NCBI RefSeq assembly: GCF_900107455.1
Contig: NZ_FNQB01000006.1
Coordinates: forward strand, 186,001 to 250,000
Length of the DNA stretch: 64,000 nt
Direction: 5' to 3'
Origin: Asanoa ishikariensis
GTDB taxonomy: Bacteria; Actinomycetota; Actinomycetes; Mycobacteriales; Micromonosporaceae
Shown here: piece after piece, positions 15,684 through 62,595 of the stretch
Position numbering within the stretch: the stretch's first letter is position 1
Layout: the number at the start of each line of letters is the position of its first letter
Notes under the pieces: model-generated
What the model saw: the letters and a program-made list of their open reading frames with translations, nothing else
Database searches by the model: none
What the model was told of the DNA's origin: nothing
Translations under genes and position numbers: made by a program

Positions 15684-15741
15684 GCCGTGGCCCTGTCCCG
15701 TGGCTCAGCGTGGCGCGCCGGCCAGGCCCGGGTGCGCGCGG

Positions 15742-15998
15742 AGAGTGCCCAGGTACCGGCGCCGTGGCCGCTCTTGGCGTGCGGAAAGCGGCCGGGTACC
15801 GGAGTCGTGGCTGCTCATCGCATGAGAAAGCGGCCGAGCACCCGCGCCGGGGCCGCTCATCGCGTGCAGAAAGCGGCCAGGTACCGGCGTCGTGGCCGCC
15901 CGTCGCGTGCAGAAAGCAGCCCAGCATCGGTGTCGTGGCCGGTCTTCGGACGCGGAAAGCGGCCGGGAACCGGAGTCGTGGCTGCTCATCGCGTGCGG
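15742..15998. repeat. 43-bp imperfect tandem repeat, six copies
   Basis: Six contiguous units start at 15742, 15785, 15827, 15870, 15913 and 15956, each 43 bp (the second is 42). Most begin AAAGCGGCC and share the cores GGTACCGG and GTCGTGGC-GCTCATCGCGTGC with scattered substitutions. The period is not a multiple of three, and frames crossing it do not look coding. The array fills the gap between the PBP terminator and the GGDEF gene. There are no spacers, so it is not a CRISPR array. The rest of 15617-16214 shows no gene. Confidence 0.85.
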
Positions 15999-19200: not shown

Positions 19201-19350
19201 GGTTGCCGCAACGCCCCCAAAGCCACGCGGCGGTTGCCGCAACGACCGGAGCCAACCCGGCGGTTGCCGCAACGACCGGAGCCAACCCGGCGGTTGCCGC
19301 AACGACCGGAGCCAACCCGGCGGTTGCCGCAACGACCGGAGCCAACGTCA
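19201..19350. repeat. 30-bp tandem repeat carrying GTTGCCGCAAC, about five copies
   Basis: Exact 30-bp units occupy 19231-19260, 19261-19290 and 19291-19320. A first diverged unit is at 19201-19230 and a last unit that differs in its final few bases is at 19321-19350. Each unit begins with GGTTGCCGCAAC, an 11-bp interrupted palindrome also found elsewhere in the window. The array sits between the convergent YqeY and asd genes; it may be transcribed from both sides and has no sign of coding. Confidence 0.9.
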
Positions 19351-19439: not shown

Positions 19440-20516
19440 CTACTTCGCAGTCAGCTCCGCCGCGACCAGTTCCGCGATCTGGGCCGTGTTCAGGGCCGCA
19501 CCCTTACGCAGGTTGTCGCCGGTGACGAACAGGTCCAGCGCACGCGGGTCGTCCATCGCGCGCCGGATGCGGCCGACCCACGCCGGGTCGGTGCCCACCG
19601 CGTCGATCGGCATCGGGAACTCGCCCGCTGCCGGGTCGTCGACCAGGATCACGCTGGGTGCGTTGCGCAGCGCCTCGCGGGCGCCGTCCGCCGTCACCTC
19701 GCTGCCGAAGACCGCGTGCACCGCGACCGAGTGGCCGGTCACGACCGGCACGCGGACGCAGGTCGCCGAGACCTTCAGGTCGGGCAGACCCAGGATCTTG
19801 CGTGACTCGTTGCGGAGCTTCAGCTCCTCGGACGACCAACCCGCGTCCTTCAGCGAGCCCGCCCACGGCACCACGTTGAGCGCCAGCGGTGCCGGGAACG
19901 GGCCGAGGTCGTCGCCGATCGCCTGGCGTACGTTGCCGGAGCGGGAGCCCAGCACCCGGTCCCCCGCGATCTTCGTGAGTTGGTCGTGCAGCGTGTCGAC
20001 GCCGACCTGCCCGGCGCCGGACACCGCCTGGTAGGAGGCCAGCACGAGCTCGCGCAGGCCGTATTCACGGTGCAGCGGAGCGATCGCCACGATCATCGTC
20101 AGGGTCGTGCAGTTGGCGTTGGCGATGATGCCCTTCGGCCGGTTGCGGATCTGTTCGGGGTTGATCTCCGGGACCACCAGCGGCACGTCGCGGTCCATCC
20201 GGAACGCGGCCGAGTTGTCGACCGCGACGGCGCCCAGGGCGGCCGCCCGCGGCGCCCACTCCGCCGACACCTCGTCGGGCACATCGAACATCGCCACATC
20301 GACGCCGGCCAACGTGTCCTCGGAAAGCTCCTGGACGGTCAGCTCTTCGCCTCGGCAGTAGACCTTCTTGCCGGCCGACCGGGGCGAGGACAGCAGGCGG
20401 ATCTCGCCCCAGACGTTCTTGCGCGCCGACAACAGCTCGCACATCACCGTGCCGACGGCTCCGGTCGCGCCGACGACCGCCAGGGATGGCAGGCCGGAGC
20501 GCGACACCGGGCTCAC
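19440..20516 (-). CDS. asd: Aspartate-semialdehyde dehydrogenase
   Basis: A 358-residue enzyme reducing aspartyl phosphate to aspartate semialdehyde with NADPH, the branch step to lysine/DAP, threonine and methionine. The Rossmann motif is VVGATGAVG (14-22), the catalytic cysteine Cys136 lies in ANANCTT, and the RVPVVTGHS segment carries the catalytic histidine. Length is normal. The GTG start overlaps the lysC stop (20513-20516), so the two are translationally coupled. The order lysC-asd is the standard actinobacterial pair. Confidence 0.96.
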
Positions 20517-27360: not shown

Positions 27361-27472
27361 GGCTGTTGCCGCAACCCGCCGCGTACCTGGCAGCGCAGCG
27401 AAGCGGAGCGGTCCCCGGCGGGAGCGACGGTCGTGCCGCCGACGAGCCCGGGACCGCGTCCGCTCTTGACCT

Positions 27473-46046: not shown

Positions 46047-47195
46047 TCAGCCGAACTGCGCGAGCCGGGCCCGGGAGGCGCCGCGGATCGTGGTGAACGC
46101 CCCACCGGCGACCACCTTGTGCAGGCTGTTACTGGCGGCCATCGTGTGCACCCCGCTCGACCCGTTGCCGTCGGCGGCCCAGGGCAGCAGCGCGCCGCCG
46201 GCCTCGTTCGCCGCGGCCAACTTGATGCGGCGGGTGTTGCCGTCGGTGCACGAGCCCTTGTCGCCGGTACGGGCCGACTTGCACACGTTGTCGTAGTGGC
46301 CGCCGATGTAGACGACCTTGTCGAGCACCGCGACCGCCTGGGCGTCTCCGTCCATGGTCAGGGTCCAGCGTCCGGCACCCGAGGTGGTGAACGCACCGAG
46401 CCGGCCGCCGGGCCCGCCCATCGCGGCGTAGATGCCCGAGGCACCGACCGCGACCGCGTGCACGACCTCGCTGGCCCGCGAGGTGAAGCCGGTGTCGACC
46501 GCGCCGGAGGTGGTCAGCGCGGCGAGGTGCCGCGTGCCGGACCCACCGCCGATCGAGCCGAACTGGCCGCCGACGTAGATCCGCCGACCAGACACGACGA
46601 CCGACTCGACGGTGTCGTCGGCCCGCGGACGCCAACCCGCGATCGGTGCGCCCGTGTTGGGGTCGAACGCGGCGAGGCGGTGGATCGCCTGGCCGTTGAG
46701 GCTGGTCATCGTGCCACCGGCGTAGAGGCGGCCGTTGCCGACGGCGAGCGAGTACGGCATGCCGGTCAGCGACTGCTTGAAGGAGTTGTGCACCGCGCCG
46801 TTGCCGGCGTCGAGGCGTGCCAGGCCGTCCCGGCCGGTGCCGCTGATCGAGGTGAACGCGCCGCCGACGAACACGGCGCGACCCGACACGGCGATCGCCC
46901 GGACCGTGCTGTCCGCGGCGGGGGCCCAACCGAGCAGCGCACCCGTGCGGGCGTTGACCGCCGCCAGCCGGTTCCGCGTGACCGTTCGGCCGCCGGCCGT
47001 CACGCTGGTGAAGTCGCCGCCCACGTAGAGGGTGTCCCCGGCGTACGCCGTGGCCAGCACCGTCCCGTTGAACGTCGGCAAGGGATCCGGCGTCGCCTTG
47101 ACGATGGCGGCCAGCGCGGGCGAACCCGGCGACAACAAAGCCGCGGTGGCCGCGACGGAAGCTATGAGACCGGCAAGTTTGCCCCTAAATGTCAC
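46047..47195 (-). CDS. Exported beta-propeller-like repeat protein
   Basis: A 382-residue secreted protein. The signal peptide ends near SPALA. The mature chain is built of about seven repeats of roughly 45-50 residues with the recurring phrases YVGGDFTSV, FVGGAFTSI, YAGGTMTSL, YVGGQFGSI, YIGGHYDNV and VAGGAFTTI, each followed by LAA/ARL-type strands. This is the delta-60/galactose-oxidase-like propeller pattern. It lacks catalytic motifs I can name and may bind sugars or proteins at the cell surface. The GTG start has a TACGGT -10 six bases upstream. Confidence 0.82.
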   Translation of the reverse strand: MTFRGKLAGLIASVAATAALLSPGSPALAAIVKATPDPLPTFNGTVLATAYAGDTLYVGGDFTSVTAGGRTVTRNRLAAVNARTGALLGWAPAADSTVRAIAVSGRAVFVGGAFTSISGTGRDGLARLDAGNGAVHNSFKQSLTGMPYSLAVGNGRLYAGGTMTSLNGQAIHRLAAFDPNTGAPIAGWRPRADDTVESVVVSGRRIYVGGQFGSIGGGSGTRHLAALTTSGAVDTGFTSRASEVVHAVAVGASGIYAAMGGPGGRLGAFTTSGAGRWTLTMDGDAQAVAVLDKVVYIGGHYDNVCKSARTGDKGSCTDGNTRRIKLAAANEAGGALLPWAADGNGSSGVHTMAASNSLHKVVAGGAFTTIRGASRARLAQFG

Positions 47196-47201
47196 GCGGA
47201 C

Positions 47202-47207
47202 ACCGTA
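47202..47207 (-). promoter_or_regulatory. -10 element of the beta-propeller gene (leaderless type)
   Basis: On the minus strand TACGGT lies 6 nt before the GTG at 47195. Confidence 0.35.
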
Positions 47208-47305
47208 TATGGGCGATTCGGTGTAAACGGCGCGCGAAACGCGAACGGCGTCGCCCCGCCGGCATCACGCGCCGCACCGGGTCGAGGTGTGCGAAAGTCG
47301 CTCGC

Positions 47306-48325
47306 GTGGACATCGCGGTGATCGGGTTGGGTCTCATCGGCGGGTCGGCGCTGCGCGCGCTGGCCGCTCACGGGCATCGCGTGCTCGGATACGACGCCGA
47401 CCCGGCCACCCGGGCAACCGCCCGCACCGCCGCGGCGCGGGCACCGCAGAACGCCCGCTGGCAGGTCACGGGGACGATCCGGGACACCGTCGCGGCTGCC
47501 GACCTGGTGCTCGTCGCCGTGCCGTTGCCAGCGTTGCCCCGGGTGTTCGACGAGATCGCCGCCACGGGCTACACCGGGCTGGTCACCGACGTCACCTCGG
47601 TCAAGACCCCCGTGCGGATGCTGGTGGAGCAGCGGCTGCAGGCGCGACACCAGCGGCTGTCGGGCTTCGTCGGCGGCCATCCGATGGCCGGCAAGGAGAG
47701 CTCCGGGTTCGGCGCGGCCGACGCCGACCTCTTCCAGGACTGCGCCTGGGTGCTCTGCTTCGAGCCCGGCCAAACGTCACTGGGCGACTGGCTGGACCTG
47801 GCCGAGCTCGTCATCGGGCTCGGTGCCCGGGTGGTGCCGACCACGGCCGAGGAGCACGACCGGGCCGTGGCCGCCATCAGCCACGTACCCCATCTGCTGG
47901 CCACCGCCCTCGCCGCCAGCGCGGCCGACCCGCTCGCCGGCGCCCTGGCCGCGGGGTCGTTCCGCGACGGCACCCGCGTTGCGGCAACCCGGCCGGAGCT
48001 GATCGCCGCGATGTGCGGTGGCAACGCCCCCGCGGTCGCGCCGACGTTGGACGGCATCATCGCCGCGCTGCAGGAAGCGCGGGCCGCGTTGGACGCGCCC
48101 GACCCGATCACCGCGCTGTTGCCCTGGCTCGCGCCGGGTCACGCGATGCGCGCCGGCTGGCCTCCGCCGCTGGCCGCGCCGTTGGACATCCCCGCCCGCC
48201 CCGACGCCCTCCTGCGGCTCGGCCGGGCCGGCGGCTGGGTGCGGGCTGTCGCCGCCGACCGGTCGACGGTCAGCGTGGTCAGACCCGCTCCCCGCGGTCC
48301 AGGCGGATTACTCGACGATCTGTGA
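47306..48325 (+). CDS. tyrA: Prephenate dehydrogenase
   Basis: A 339-residue NAD(P)-dependent enzyme of tyrosine synthesis, converting prephenate to 4-hydroxyphenylpyruvate. The Rossmann motif is VIGLGLIGGS near the N terminus; VTDVTSVKTPV, GGHPMAGKESSGFGAADADLF and TAEEHDRAVAAISHVPHLLATAL are conserved family segments. No ACT domain is present. The start is the GTG of VDIAVIG. A GTTGCGGCAAC motif falls within the gene (47978). Its last 47 bases overlap the convergent mtnA gene. Confidence 0.94.
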   Translation: MDIAVIGLGLIGGSALRALAAHGHRVLGYDADPATRATARTAAARAPQNARWQVTGTIRDTVAAADLVLVAVPLPALPRVFDEIAATGYTGLVTDVTSVKTPVRMLVEQRLQARHQRLSGFVGGHPMAGKESSGFGAADADLFQDCAWVLCFEPGQTSLGDWLDLAELVIGLGARVVPTTAEEHDRAVAAISHVPHLLATALAASAADPLAGALAAGSFRDGTRVAATRPELIAAMCGGNAPAVAPTLDGIIAALQEARAALDAPDPITALLPWLAPGHAMRAGWPPPLAAPLDIPARPDALLRLGRAGGWVRAVAADRSTVSVVRPAPRGPGGLLDDL

Positions 48326-55483: not shown

Positions 55484-56071
55484 TCAGGGTGCGTCGGGCG
55501 CCGCCTGCTCAGCCGCAGGAGACGGGGAGCCTGTGGTCCCGCCGCTGACCGTAGCCGTCGCCGTGATCGTCTTCTTCGCCACGGGGCCTCCGCCGACGGT
55601 CATCAGCAGATATGTGTGCTTGGCGGTCTCCCCCGGACCCCAGTCGCCGCAGGAGAACGAGAACGACTGCGACCCCGAGGCGTCGAACGTGTCGTAGACG
55701 CCCGGGCCGTCGACCGAGATGGTGACCTTGTCGGTGCCGGTCACCTTCCACTCGACGGTGACCTCGCGGCCGTTGGGCCACTGACCGGACGGGCAATGCG
55801 GCTTCTGCGAGATCCGGAAGTACTGGATCCACGGATCCTTGCGCTGCTCGCCGCCGTTCGAGCCGCCGTTCTCGCCGCCGGCCGGCTCGATGGCCGTCGC
55901 CGAAGGGCTAGGGGTCAGGTCGGCGTCGGTGGGGGTGTCCTCGCCGATCACGTACGACGCGCCGGTGGGCGTCTCGGCTCCGAGGTTGTTGCCGGGTTTC
56001 TCACCGCACCCGGTCAACAGCGTTGCCGCAACGGCGGTGAGCAGCACGAGTGGGGTGCGGAAGGTCCTCAT
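55484..56071 (-). CDS. Lipoprotein of unknown function
   Basis: A 195-residue lipoprotein. The signal peptide ends at the lipobox LLTGC (Cys22). A long Thr/Pro/Gly-rich linker leads to an exported beta-sandwich-like domain of about 90 residues (VTVEWKVTGTDKVTISVDGPGVYDTF ... TYLLMTVGGG) with two cysteines (HCPSG, SCGDW). I do not know the family. The signal-peptide codons contain a GTTGCCGCAAC motif (56022-56032). A TACCGT 8 nt upstream of the ATG could be its -10. Confidence 0.8.
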   Translation of the reverse strand: MRTFRTPLVLLTAVAATLLTGCGEKPGNNLGAETPTGASYVIGEDTPTDADLTPSPSATAIEPAGGENGGSNGGEQRKDPWIQYFRISQKPHCPSGQWPNGREVTVEWKVTGTDKVTISVDGPGVYDTFDASGSQSFSFSCGDWGPGETAKHTYLLMTVGGGPVAKKTITATATVSGGTTGSPSPAAEQAAPDAP

Positions 56072-59835: not shown

Positions 59836-62595
59836 GTGGTTGACGATTCGGACCGGGTCTACCGGCCCAGTGGCAACGGCGCGGCGCAGTGGCCGGGCGC
59901 CGAGCAGCCATGGCCGCCGGCCGAGCCCGACGCCGGGTCTGCCGACCAGGATCCGGCCGAGCCCGGTCCCGGTCCCGTGCACGGCGGTCCGGGGCAAGGC
60001 GGTTCGGTGCACGGCGGTTCGGGGCACGGTGGTTCGGGGCACGGTGGCCCGGTGCACGGCGGTCCGCCGGTGCCTCCGCCACCGCCGCCGATCCGGGTGC
60101 CGGCACCGCCCGCGCCGCCGCCGATCAACCGGCCCGGCATGCCCATGCCCGCGCCGGCGCTGCCGCAGCAGCCCGGGCCCGGCCGCAACGCACACCCGCC
60201 CCGCTCCGGTCCTGGCAACTACCCACAGCCGCCGGTGCCGCCGCACGGCGGGCCGGTCTATTACCCACAACCGCCGGCGCCGCCGCACGGCGGGCCGGTC
60301 CATCGCCCGCAACCGCCGGCGCCCCCGCACGCCGGGCCGGTCCATCAGCCACAACCGCCGGCGCCGCCGCACGCCGGGCCGCCCCACCACCCACAACCGC
60401 CGGCGCCCCCGCACACCGGGCCGCCCCATCACCCACAACCGCCGGCGCCCCCGCACACCGGGCCGCCCCATCACCCACAACCGCCGGCGCCCCCGCACGC
60501 CGGGCCGATTTACCGGCCGCAGCCGCCGGCACCGCCGCACCCGTCGGACTACCCGGGCGCCGGCCCGAACCCGCCCGCACCGCGCCCGCCGGCGATGCCG
60601 GGGCGCCCCCCTGCGACGCCGCCGGCGCCGCCCGGGCAGGCGCCTCAAAGCGCCGCCGTGCCCCTCCAGCGCAACGGTGATGGCCGGGTGGCTGGCACCC
60701 CTTGGTCCCAACCTCCGCAGCGTCCGCCGACGCCGCTGGCCGGTCTGCCGGCTCCAGCGCCCACCAGCCCATCGCCCACGCACGGAAGCGCGTTGCCGCA
60801 ACACCAGGGCAGCCCACCGGCCCACCCCGCCGCGTCGTCGCAACCCGCCGGGGACTCAGCGGACGCCCCCCGGGGATTGCCGCAACACGACGGCGCGCGG
60901 GAAGGGCACGCCAGCGCGTTGCCGCAGCACGACGGCCCGCGGGACCAGCACGCCAGCGCGTTGCCGCAACACCTCGGCGAGTTGCCGCAACACCCAGGTC
61001 CGCCCGGCGAACACTTCTCCGAGCCGCCGCAACCTGGCGGCGGCCGGGAAGAGCAACCGAGCGGGTTGCCGCAACACAGCGGCGGACCTCGGGAGCTACC
61101 CCACGGGTTGCCGCCCCGCGAAGACGGGCAAGCAGAGCAACGCGGCGGGTTGCCGCAACACAGTGGCGCACCCCCGGAGCAACCCCGCGCGCTGCCGCAA
61201 CGCGAAGACGGGCAAGCAGAGCAACCCGGCGGGTCGCCGGAACACGACGACGAGCCAGAAGATCAGCCCAGCGGGTTGCCGCAATACGACGACGAGCCAG
61301 TCGAGCAGTACGGCGCCTTGCGGCAACACGACGACGAGCCAGAAGATCAGCACGGCGTTTTGCCGCAATACAACGACGCGCCGGTCGAGCAGTACAGCGG
61401 CTTACGGCAGTACGACGACGAGCCAATCCAGCAGCACACCGGGTTGCCGCAACACTTGGGCGCTCCCCCGCAACACCCTGGGGCGCCGCGTTCGCCGAAT
61501 GCCTCGGTGCCGCCGCACGTGCTCTCGATGGCCGGCGACCTCGGACCCGGTGAAATCGCTCCTGGGGTCGTCGAGGTGCCGCAACAGGGCGTCTACCGGA
61601 TGCCTACGCCGTCGGCGGCGCCCGCGACTGCCAATCCCCGCGCCGACCGGGCGCCCGACGGTGCCGTGCCGACCGCGGACGACTTCGCCCGTCGCCGGGC
61701 TTTGCGGGCGCCCGACCCGATCGCCACCTCCGGGGTGCGCGCCGTGGTCAACCGCACCTCGATGGGCCTGGTGAAGCTGCCGCCCGGCACCCACGAGCGG
61801 GAGCGCCGTCAGGGCATCGACACGATTCGGCGCAACTTCGGCGGGCTGCGGCAGGTCACCGTTGTCAACCCGAAGGGCGGTGCGGGCAAGACCGTTGCGA
61901 TCCTGCTGCTCGCGATGACCTTTGGGCAGAAGCGCGGCGGGTACGTGCTGGCCTGGGACAACAACGAGACCCAGGGCACCCTGGGCATGCGCGCCCAGCA
62001 GGACTTCCACAACCGCACGGTGCGCGACCTGCTGCGCGACCTGGCGCAGTTCCGCGGGGCGCAGGGCCGGGTCGGCGACCTCTCGCAGTACGTGCGGGCG
62101 CAGGGCGAGGGCATGTTCGACGTGCTCGCCTCGGACGAGTCAGCGACCGCCGGCGAGATGCTGACGGCGGCCGCGTTCGCGCACATCCGCGACGTGGTCA
62201 GCCGGTTCTACAAGTTGATCTTCGTCGACACCGGCAACAACGTGCGTGCGCAGAACTGGCAGGCCGCGATCGACGCGACCGACCAGCTCGTGGTGACGAT
62301 GTCGGCCCGCAACGACTCCGCCGAGACCGCCGCCCGGATGCTCGACCACCTCGAGCAGACCGGCCGGCACCGGCTCGTCCGGCAGGCGGTCACCGTGGTG
62401 TCGATGCCGCCGTCCCGGCGCGAGATCGACCTGCCGCCGATCGAGAGCCACTTCGCCGCGCGCACGCGAGCCGTCCTGCTCGCGCCCTACGAGCGCCTGA
62501 TCGACACCGGCGAGCCGCTCCGGTACGCCGGCCTCAGCCGAGAGACCCGCGACGCTTGGTTGCGGATCGCGGCTGCGGTGGCGGAGGGCCTGTAG
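59836..62595 (+). CDS. EspI-like MinD/ParA-type ATPase with long repeat-rich N terminus
   Basis: A 919-residue protein. Residues 1-660 are low complexity: GGSGH pentapeptide repeats (about 50-77), eight 14-residue proline-rich repeats (129-240), a Pro/Ala linker, then about seventeen 14-residue units with LPQH at their start (320-546). The last 255 residues are a MinD/ParA-like ATPase with deviant Walker A PKGGAGKT (Lys680), LAWDNNETQGTLGMRAQ and LIFVDTGNNVRAQNW. The closest build known to me is mycobacterial EspI of ESX-1, but no ESX genes are here. The GTG at 59836 follows GTGGAGGTG at good spacing; GTG 59809 would add nine residues. One TTA codon occurs (61402). Confidence 0.85.
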   Translation: MVDDSDRVYRPSGNGAAQWPGAEQPWPPAEPDAGSADQDPAEPGPGPVHGGPGQGGSVHGGSGHGGSGHGGPVHGGPPVPPPPPPIRVPAPPAPPPINRPGMPMPAPALPQQPGPGRNAHPPRSGPGNYPQPPVPPHGGPVYYPQPPAPPHGGPVHRPQPPAPPHAGPVHQPQPPAPPHAGPPHHPQPPAPPHTGPPHHPQPPAPPHTGPPHHPQPPAPPHAGPIYRPQPPAPPHPSDYPGAGPNPPAPRPPAMPGRPPATPPAPPGQAPQSAAVPLQRNGDGRVAGTPWSQPPQRPPTPLAGLPAPAPTSPSPTHGSALPQHQGSPPAHPAASSQPAGDSADAPRGLPQHDGAREGHASALPQHDGPRDQHASALPQHLGELPQHPGPPGEHFSEPPQPGGGREEQPSGLPQHSGGPRELPHGLPPREDGQAEQRGGLPQHSGAPPEQPRALPQREDGQAEQPGGSPEHDDEPEDQPSGLPQYDDEPVEQYGALRQHDDEPEDQHGVLPQYNDAPVEQYSGLRQYDDEPIQQHTGLPQHLGAPPQHPGAPRSPNASVPPHVLSMAGDLGPGEIAPGVVEVPQQGVYRMPTPSAAPATANPRADRAPDGAVPTADDFARRRALRAPDPIATSGVRAVVNRTSMGLVKLPPGTHERERRQGIDTIRRNFGGLRQVTVVNPKGGAGKTVAILLLAMTFGQKRGGYVLAWDNNETQGTLGMRAQQDFHNRTVRDLLRDLAQFRGAQGRVGDLSQYVRAQGEGMFDVLASDESATAGEMLTAAAFAHIRDVVSRFYKLIFVDTGNNVRAQNWQAAIDATDQLVVTMSARNDSAETAARMLDHLEQTGRHRLVRQAVTVVSMPPSRREIDLPPIESHFAARTRAVLLAPYERLIDTGEPLRYAGLSRETRDAWLRIAAAVAEGL
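60220..60555 (+). repeat. 42-bp coding repeat, eight copies (proline-rich 14-mers)
   Basis: Eight contiguous in-frame 42-bp units encode variants of PQPPAPPHAGPVHQ. Units are nearly identical in the middle copies and more diverged at both ends, as in an expanding minisatellite. Confidence 0.9.
60793..61473 (+). repeat. 42-bp coding repeat centred on TTGCCGCAA, about seventeen units
   Basis: Units begin at 60793, 60835, 60877, 60919, 60961 (half unit), 60982, 61024, 61066, 61108, 61150, 61192, 61234, 61276, 61318, 61360, 61402 and 61444. Ten carry exact TTGCSGCAA and the rest diverged forms. The encoded 14-mer starts LPQH or LPQY and continues with acidic residues (DDEPEDQ). A 21-bp half-period is visible at 60961-60982 and 61444-61465. 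Confidence 0.9.

Follow-up and report, generated by a model that had tools for sequence, protein, structure and literature searches.

REP/BIME elements are palindromes, longer than the word treated here and essentially extragenic, and DNA uptake sequences (DUS/USS) are non-palindromic, far more numerous words of which the exact form is comparable in number to all one-mismatch forms. The element described here is an 11-bp odd palindrome, GTTGCSGCAAC (S being C or G), met in a stretch of 64,000 nt of Asanoa ishikariensis DNA (the window), where it is repeated in tandem inside a gene with a C-terminal ParA/MinD-type ATPase domain and again between genes. HIP1 is the nearest known phenomenon for its dispersed copies, and the Rickettsia palindromic elements are nearest for palindromes inside genes.

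HIP1 and the alternate HIPs of cyanobacteria (PMC4390886) are short palindromes above expectation which are dispersed and change between close species, all of which holds for the Asanoa word; their one-letter deviations pile up at the first and last letters, and methylation with biased repair is the model proposed for them there. Unlike HIP1, the Asanoa word is 11 bp long and odd, has no enriched core, forms dense arrays, and occurs in the richest species at about 12 non-array sites per Mb (a rough estimate from 55 sites and approximate DNA lengths). Rickettsia palindromic elements also place palindromic DNA in frame within protein-coding genes, but their units measure about 150 bp and have a conserved peptide (PMC10969869), whereas the Asanoa arrays have 11 bp in common and the word occurs in all frames. 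A likeness in layout exists to the KorB operator OB of RK2, TTTAGC[C/G]GCTAAA, an odd palindrome with the same GCSGC centre and with different arms and length (PMC2680271); KorB belongs to the ParB family and acts as a CTP-dependent sliding clamp (PMC11790492).

No account of GTTGCSGCAAC or of such repeats in Asanoa was met among the matches listed from the open-access literature, as judged by titles and the starts of abstracts. In part of this genus of soil bacteria, the exact 11-mer is enriched both between genes and in coding DNA of all frames, and its arrays are gained and lost from species to species. The LPQH peptide repeated in the ATPase gene is one frame's reading of this DNA word.

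The 42-bp array of the ATPase gene

The original prediction, made from the letters of the window, described a coding minisatellite of seventeen 42-bp units in register, in which leucine is almost always encoded by the rare codon TTG and diverged words keep to the same grid. The register is borne out, with starts at 60793, 60835, 60877, 60919 and 60961, a 21-bp half unit, 60982 and then every 42 bp to 61444, and the diverged words (TCGTCGCAA, CCGCCGCAA, TTGCCGCCC, TCGCCGGAA, CTGCCGCAA, TTGCCGCAG and TTACGGCAG) do lie on it. The word itself is longer than the TTGCSGCAA noted at first. The shorter form occurs 18 times in the window (0.27 expected) and GTTGCSGCAAC 14 times (0.05 expected), six times in the ATPase gene, five times in a non-coding array next to yqeY and three times singly. 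Within the ATPase gene array there are 10 TTGCSGCAA words, the six exact 11-mers among them.

Codon usage follows the word. TTG accounts for 13 of the 17 leucine codons in the array, compared with 27 of 268 in seven stretches of coding sequence (CDS) from the window, one of which is the ATPase part of the same gene, and CAA for 20 of 30 glutamine codons, compared with 4 of 67. The enrichment of TTG had been proposed for examination genome-wide; it was examined in the host gene and these seven stretches, where TTG and CAA are both concentrated in the array. The CAA excess alone is only moderate evidence, since glutamines outside the word are often CAA too in this low-complexity gene. When a block of nine columns is slid over the 42 columns of the register, the highest conservation (0.91) starts at the word, against a spacer-column mean of 0.70, but this register is only just the best because blocks shifted by -1, +1, +2 and +3 score 0.90.

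Both LPQ and the word are absent from the four orthologues of the host gene (G002, G003, G004 and G005; G000 denotes A. ishikariensis, G003 A. hainanensis, and other genomes keep their handles), and in G001 the search returned only a 40% identical paralogue. LPQH repeats retained with CTG or CTC codons, which had been named as the sign of selection on the protein, were thus found in none of the four. The label "EspI-like" given to the gene could not be confirmed: the whole protein has no match in Pfam or NCBIfam, and its C-terminal part gives only weak matches under the cut-off to AAA_31 (22.0 bits) and CbiA (20.3 bits). The gene has a further palindrome-free coding repeat of 15 bp at 59970-60066, and elsewhere in the window a tandem repeat with 43/86 bp units occupies 15734-15998.

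Copies in Asanoa and its relatives

The word and, as a control, its reversed form were counted in 61 genomes, comprising 6 of Asanoa, 31 of other genera in the family and 24 of other families in the order. The Asanoa genomes contain 161, 61, 52, 25, 11 and 7 sites (reversed controls 3, 4, 7, 8, 7 and 2), with G001 the richest at 161 and G000 at 52 against 7, while G004 (7) and G005 (11) are not clearly enriched because their counts are near the controls. In the other genera 0-17 sites were found, the highest counts being those of G022 (17, control 18) and G009 (15, control 7), and in the other families 0-9. Words with a central W are about as numerous as their controls in G001 (5 vs 5) and G003 (7 vs 5), and an 890-kb sample of non-array G001 DNA contains none.

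This 890-kb sample contains 23 exact words against 29 for all 30 one-mismatch variants together, an exact count that is biased upward because the sampling was partly on contigs already known to carry sites; a similar ratio is characteristic of DUS/USS. Of the 29 other palindromes made by permuting the arms, the best had 5 exact against 84 one-mismatch copies, and 78 loci around the orthologous gene in other Micromonosporaceae (861 kb) gave 0 exact and 19 one-mismatch words. Order-3 Markov ratios in the G001 sample are 1.21 for TGCSGCA, 10 for TTGCSGCAA and 27 for GTTGCSGCAAC, compared with 1.35, 0.39 and 0 in the other Micromonosporaceae; the core GCSGC is hardly enriched (0.94), and the outer letter position accounts for 2 of the 29 one-mismatch cases. 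Exact and one-mismatch words number 5 and 11 in G000 (233 kb) and 8 and 15 in G003 (181 kb), with the same upward bias; for G002, G004 and G005 the sampled DNA (44-72 kb) does not suffice for a judgement of exactness.

Of 41 distinct single sites (11 in G000, 30 in G001), 38 lie in clear CDS, where they read L(P/R)Q in 22 cases, VAAT in 9 and C(R/G)N in 7, so that all three frames are used. Four single copies were compared across species in locally gapless alignments, and they arose by point substitution. At the 47978 site, G002 and G004 have GTCGCSGCGAC, with two synonymous differences, one per arm, and at the 56022 site G002 and G005 have GTGGCCGCGAC, again with two synonymous differences. 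For one G001 site a single synonymous change sufficed, and for another, in a divergent stretch which we take to be TetR-like, three changes are seen, two of them within one codon giving Arg to Gln.

A search for longer words in G001 also returned AACGGWCCGTT, a separate REP-like element with 16 copies against 0.1 expected in 715 kb. Its copies come two or three together, usually at distances of 30-50 bp (114 bp in one pair), within a longer palindrome (AAGGAACGGWCCGTTCC...) and, judged by eye, near gene ends. In the same 715-kb sample GCTGCSGCAGC is absent although CTGCSGCAG has 46 occurrences on the two strands together, and any avoidance would be speculative.

Arrays and their turnover

Nine arrays were examined: three in G000 (the window gene, the yqeY spacer and contig C2), five in G001 (three on contig C13, one each on C24 and C29) and one in G003 (C22). 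Among 100 of the 161 G001 sites that were listed, 45 lie in four arrays and 55 elsewhere; this genome has at least five arrays, and further ones may exist, the C29 array having been met by chance. The nine arrays stand at unrelated places and have only the 11-bp word in common, with no longer shared sequence and no constant ends seen. In eight of them the exact word is at least as frequent as copies with one or two changes, the window gene being the exception (6 exact, 10 changed). In the larger arrays the word stands out from the spacers, which are not the same in different arrays; the two smallest, with five and four units, tell little about this contrast because their spacers are also alike. 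The T and A letters of the word are the best-kept columns, in DNA of about 71% G+C.

Three of the nine arrays are coding, and they read LPQ in the window gene and VAAT in the C2 and the second C13 array. The open reading frame (ORF) around the C2 array is about 100 residues longer than solved fructose-1-phosphate kinases (410 vs 306-312 aa), and its family matches stop at residues 264-281, about where the VAAT array starts. In the chromosomal ParA ORF of G001, just before parB, about 1600 of the 1876 codons form a repetitive low-complexity N-terminal extension. The six intergenic arrays lie between convergent genes in four cases (yqeY, C24, C29 and C22), which recalls REP/BIME elements, and between codirectional genes in two (the first and third on C13); these orientations come from a simple gene call and the Pfam names of the neighbours, and the first C13 array may be partly coding. 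All three C13 arrays lie no further than about 27 kb from dnaA, and parS-type sites stand between the second array and the third. Because arrays of this 11-bp word are also present between genes and, within other genes, in another frame, the LPQH repeat can be seen as a by-product of the DNA word. This part of the original prediction is well supported, also by the fact that some Asanoa genomes, but not their relatives, are enriched in the exact word.

Where arrays were checked, other species lack them at the corresponding place. The C22 array of G003, an 894-bp interval including a run of N, is missing in G000, where the flanks abut with a 9-bp overlap. In G001 the C24 array fills about 720 bp; the corresponding interval, which measures about 165 bp in G002 and about 155 bp in G004, lacks the word. 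In the yqeY spacer G000 has five words and A. hainanensis has two, and in G004 a different tandem repeat of about GACCGCGCCGCCC (L210:15780-16250) takes the place of the palindrome array; this spacer seems to be a repeat hotspot.

Coordinates of the features discussed (plain numbers refer to the window, L numbers to extracted loci of the genomes named)
Feature	Coordinates	Strand	Remarks
ORF, 928 aa	59809..62595	+	low-complexity Pro/Gln/His N-terminal part; C-terminal ParA/MinD-type ATPase domain
42-bp coding array	60793..61473	+	17 register units, read LPQ/LRQ, in frame with the 928-aa ORF
Word with central G	61318..61326	+	Pro to Arg (LRQ); 9-bp palindrome retained
Upstream adjoining 42-bp coding repeat	60221..60540	+	YPQPPAPPHGGPV type, without palindrome
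Non-coding array	19202..19346	.	five GTTGCCGCAAC at 30-31 bp steps; between yqeY (+) and convergent ORF 19440-20516 (-)
Single word	27365..27375	.	spacer, no clear CDS; common to A. hainanensis; spacer not conserved in G004
Single word	47978..47988	.	inside ORF 47189-48325 (+)
Single word, read VAAT	56022..56032	.	near start of ORF 55484-56071 (-)
1-phosphofructokinase ORF of G000 (C2)	L011:1239-2468	-	410 aa, with 1-phosphofructokinase domain; holds the C2 array (VAAT tract)
ParA ORF of G001 (C13)	L127:8452-14082		1876 codons, of which the last 260 residues match ParA; holds the second C13 array (VAAT frame); followed by ParB
AACGGWCCGTT places	L145:14803-14843, L159:19805-19876, L175:14155-14246 and others (G001); L129:16034-16107; yqeY spacer of G004 (L210)

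Competing explanations and a putative recognition word

The exactness, the dyad symmetry and the frame indifference of the word suggest that a dimer recognises it in duplex DNA. In our view the odds are even that, in part of the genus Asanoa, GTTGCSGCAAC is a DNA word recognised sequence-specifically. A putative dimeric DNA-binding factor acting in trans would recognise the dyad, new single sites would be gained by substitution under weak selection or drive, and local tandem duplication would build arrays in which the words are kept while the spacers drift. As the layout of the KorB operator is alike, a ParB/KorB-like protein or another nucleoid-organising binder would be the first candidate, by analogy; the odd palindrome agrees with such operators, and the central S is shown in G001 and is less clear in G000 and G002.

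Several observations weigh against a recognition word. No binding protein or candidate gene was found, none having been searched for, and the arrays are not tied to one chromosomal place. G004 gets by with 7 sites and G005 with 11, and closely related species differ in their arrays, as is expected of dispensable DNA. Single words are kept only weakly better than random 11-mers when the sister species G000 and G003 are compared: of 35 G000 sites, out of 37 outside arrays, 21 have an exact partner in G003, against an expected rate of 0.436 measured only in 21 matched contexts (p 0.038). Moreover, the form with W at the centre exceeds its reversed control in G000 (7 vs 1) and G002 (15 vs 3), counts close to the 2-13 range of five other genera, so that the restriction to a central C or G is shown for G001 only. 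For similar lengths of DNA, G001 has somewhat more one-mismatch words than the other Micromonosporaceae do (29 vs 19), and the sampling bias of the 23 exact words belongs here as well.

Slippage and unequal exchange could amplify local units into neutral minisatellites with TTG and CAA frozen from a founder unit, as would suit the commonness of tandem repeats in the window, the different array at the yqeY place in G004, the relatedness of spacers within an array and the frequent CAA of the host gene outside the word; yet nine arrays at unrelated places share the 11-bp word and nothing more, its T and A letters are the best kept in G+C-rich DNA, and dispersed single words are enriched too, which makes this origin unlikely. 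A by-product of the HIP1 kind, in which a putative methyltransferase recognising part of the palindrome and mismatch repair convert near-matches into a functionless word, is consistent with a palindromic, substitution-gained word that occurs in all coding frames, turns over fast between close species and is over-represented genome-wide, moderately so (clearly in G001 and G000, not clearly above control in G004 and G005). It sits badly with the cores GCSGC and TGCSGCA being hardly enriched and with the scarcity of deviations at the outer position, and it leaves the arrays unexplained; we consider it quite improbable.

The original prediction spoke of a spreading motif, which is borne out in part: the word has multiplied. 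Insertion of copies, some in frame, by a mobile palindromic element of the Rickettsia palindromic element, REP/BIME or MITE type would explain why arrays are present or absent at orthologous places (C22 of G003 against G000, C24 of G001 against G002 and G004) and why one lies inside an overlong 1-phosphofructokinase ORF. Palindromes stand in frame within genes in three arrays, as with the Rickettsia elements, but a long repeated unit is lacking: since the arrays show neither constant ends nor any common stretch longer than 11 bp, and the four compared single copies stem from substitution in locally gapless alignments, this does not resemble an ordinary mobile element. No Rfam match at the gathering threshold was obtained in four array loci, a result which also led to rejection of an RNA element, and a mobile element has only a slight chance of being the answer. 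Selection on the protein, favouring an LPQH repeat in a disordered ATPase tail, could be read from the kept reading frame and from a neighbouring tail rich in Pro, Gln and His, but it is hardly credible given that none of the four orthologues has LPQ, that the same word is non-coding or read VAAT elsewhere, that codon choice follows the DNA word, and that the change of Pro to Arg at the word centre keeps the palindrome.

Other sources were rejected. The three G001 arrays near dnaA had suggested an origin-restricted centromere or chromosomal parS cluster, but this fails as a general explanation because the C24 array of G001 and the C22 array of G003 lie millions of bases from dnaA, as mapped on the G002 chromosome, and the C2 array of G000 lies 2.8 Mb from it on its own contig (C29 was not mapped). 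As to a phage source, six viral contigs each had only one word pair within 35 bp, and the search for a plasmid source gave one weak match, in Sinorhizobium (E 8e-6).

If GTTGCSGCAAC is a recognition word, Asanoa might, as a tentative and more far-reaching possibility, have a hitherto undescribed cis-acting DNA signal system, read by a chromosomal DNA-binding factor of its own such as a ParB/KorB-like clamp, a nucleoid organiser or a DNA-transfer factor. Substitutions, most of them synonymous, would have put its words into genes, and the arrays built from them, some no further than about 27 kb from dnaA and inside parA, would reflect a force sufficient to produce repeat tracts in host proteins (among them 1-phosphofructokinase, ParA and the ParA-like ATPase). 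The case is one of a protein tandem repeat that can be traced to a DNA word, for which the non-coding arrays, the arrays in another frame and the single copies serve as internal controls. Since copy numbers range from 7 to 161 among six species of a single genus, the gain and loss of short words like HIP1 can be tested here by the comparison of close genomes.

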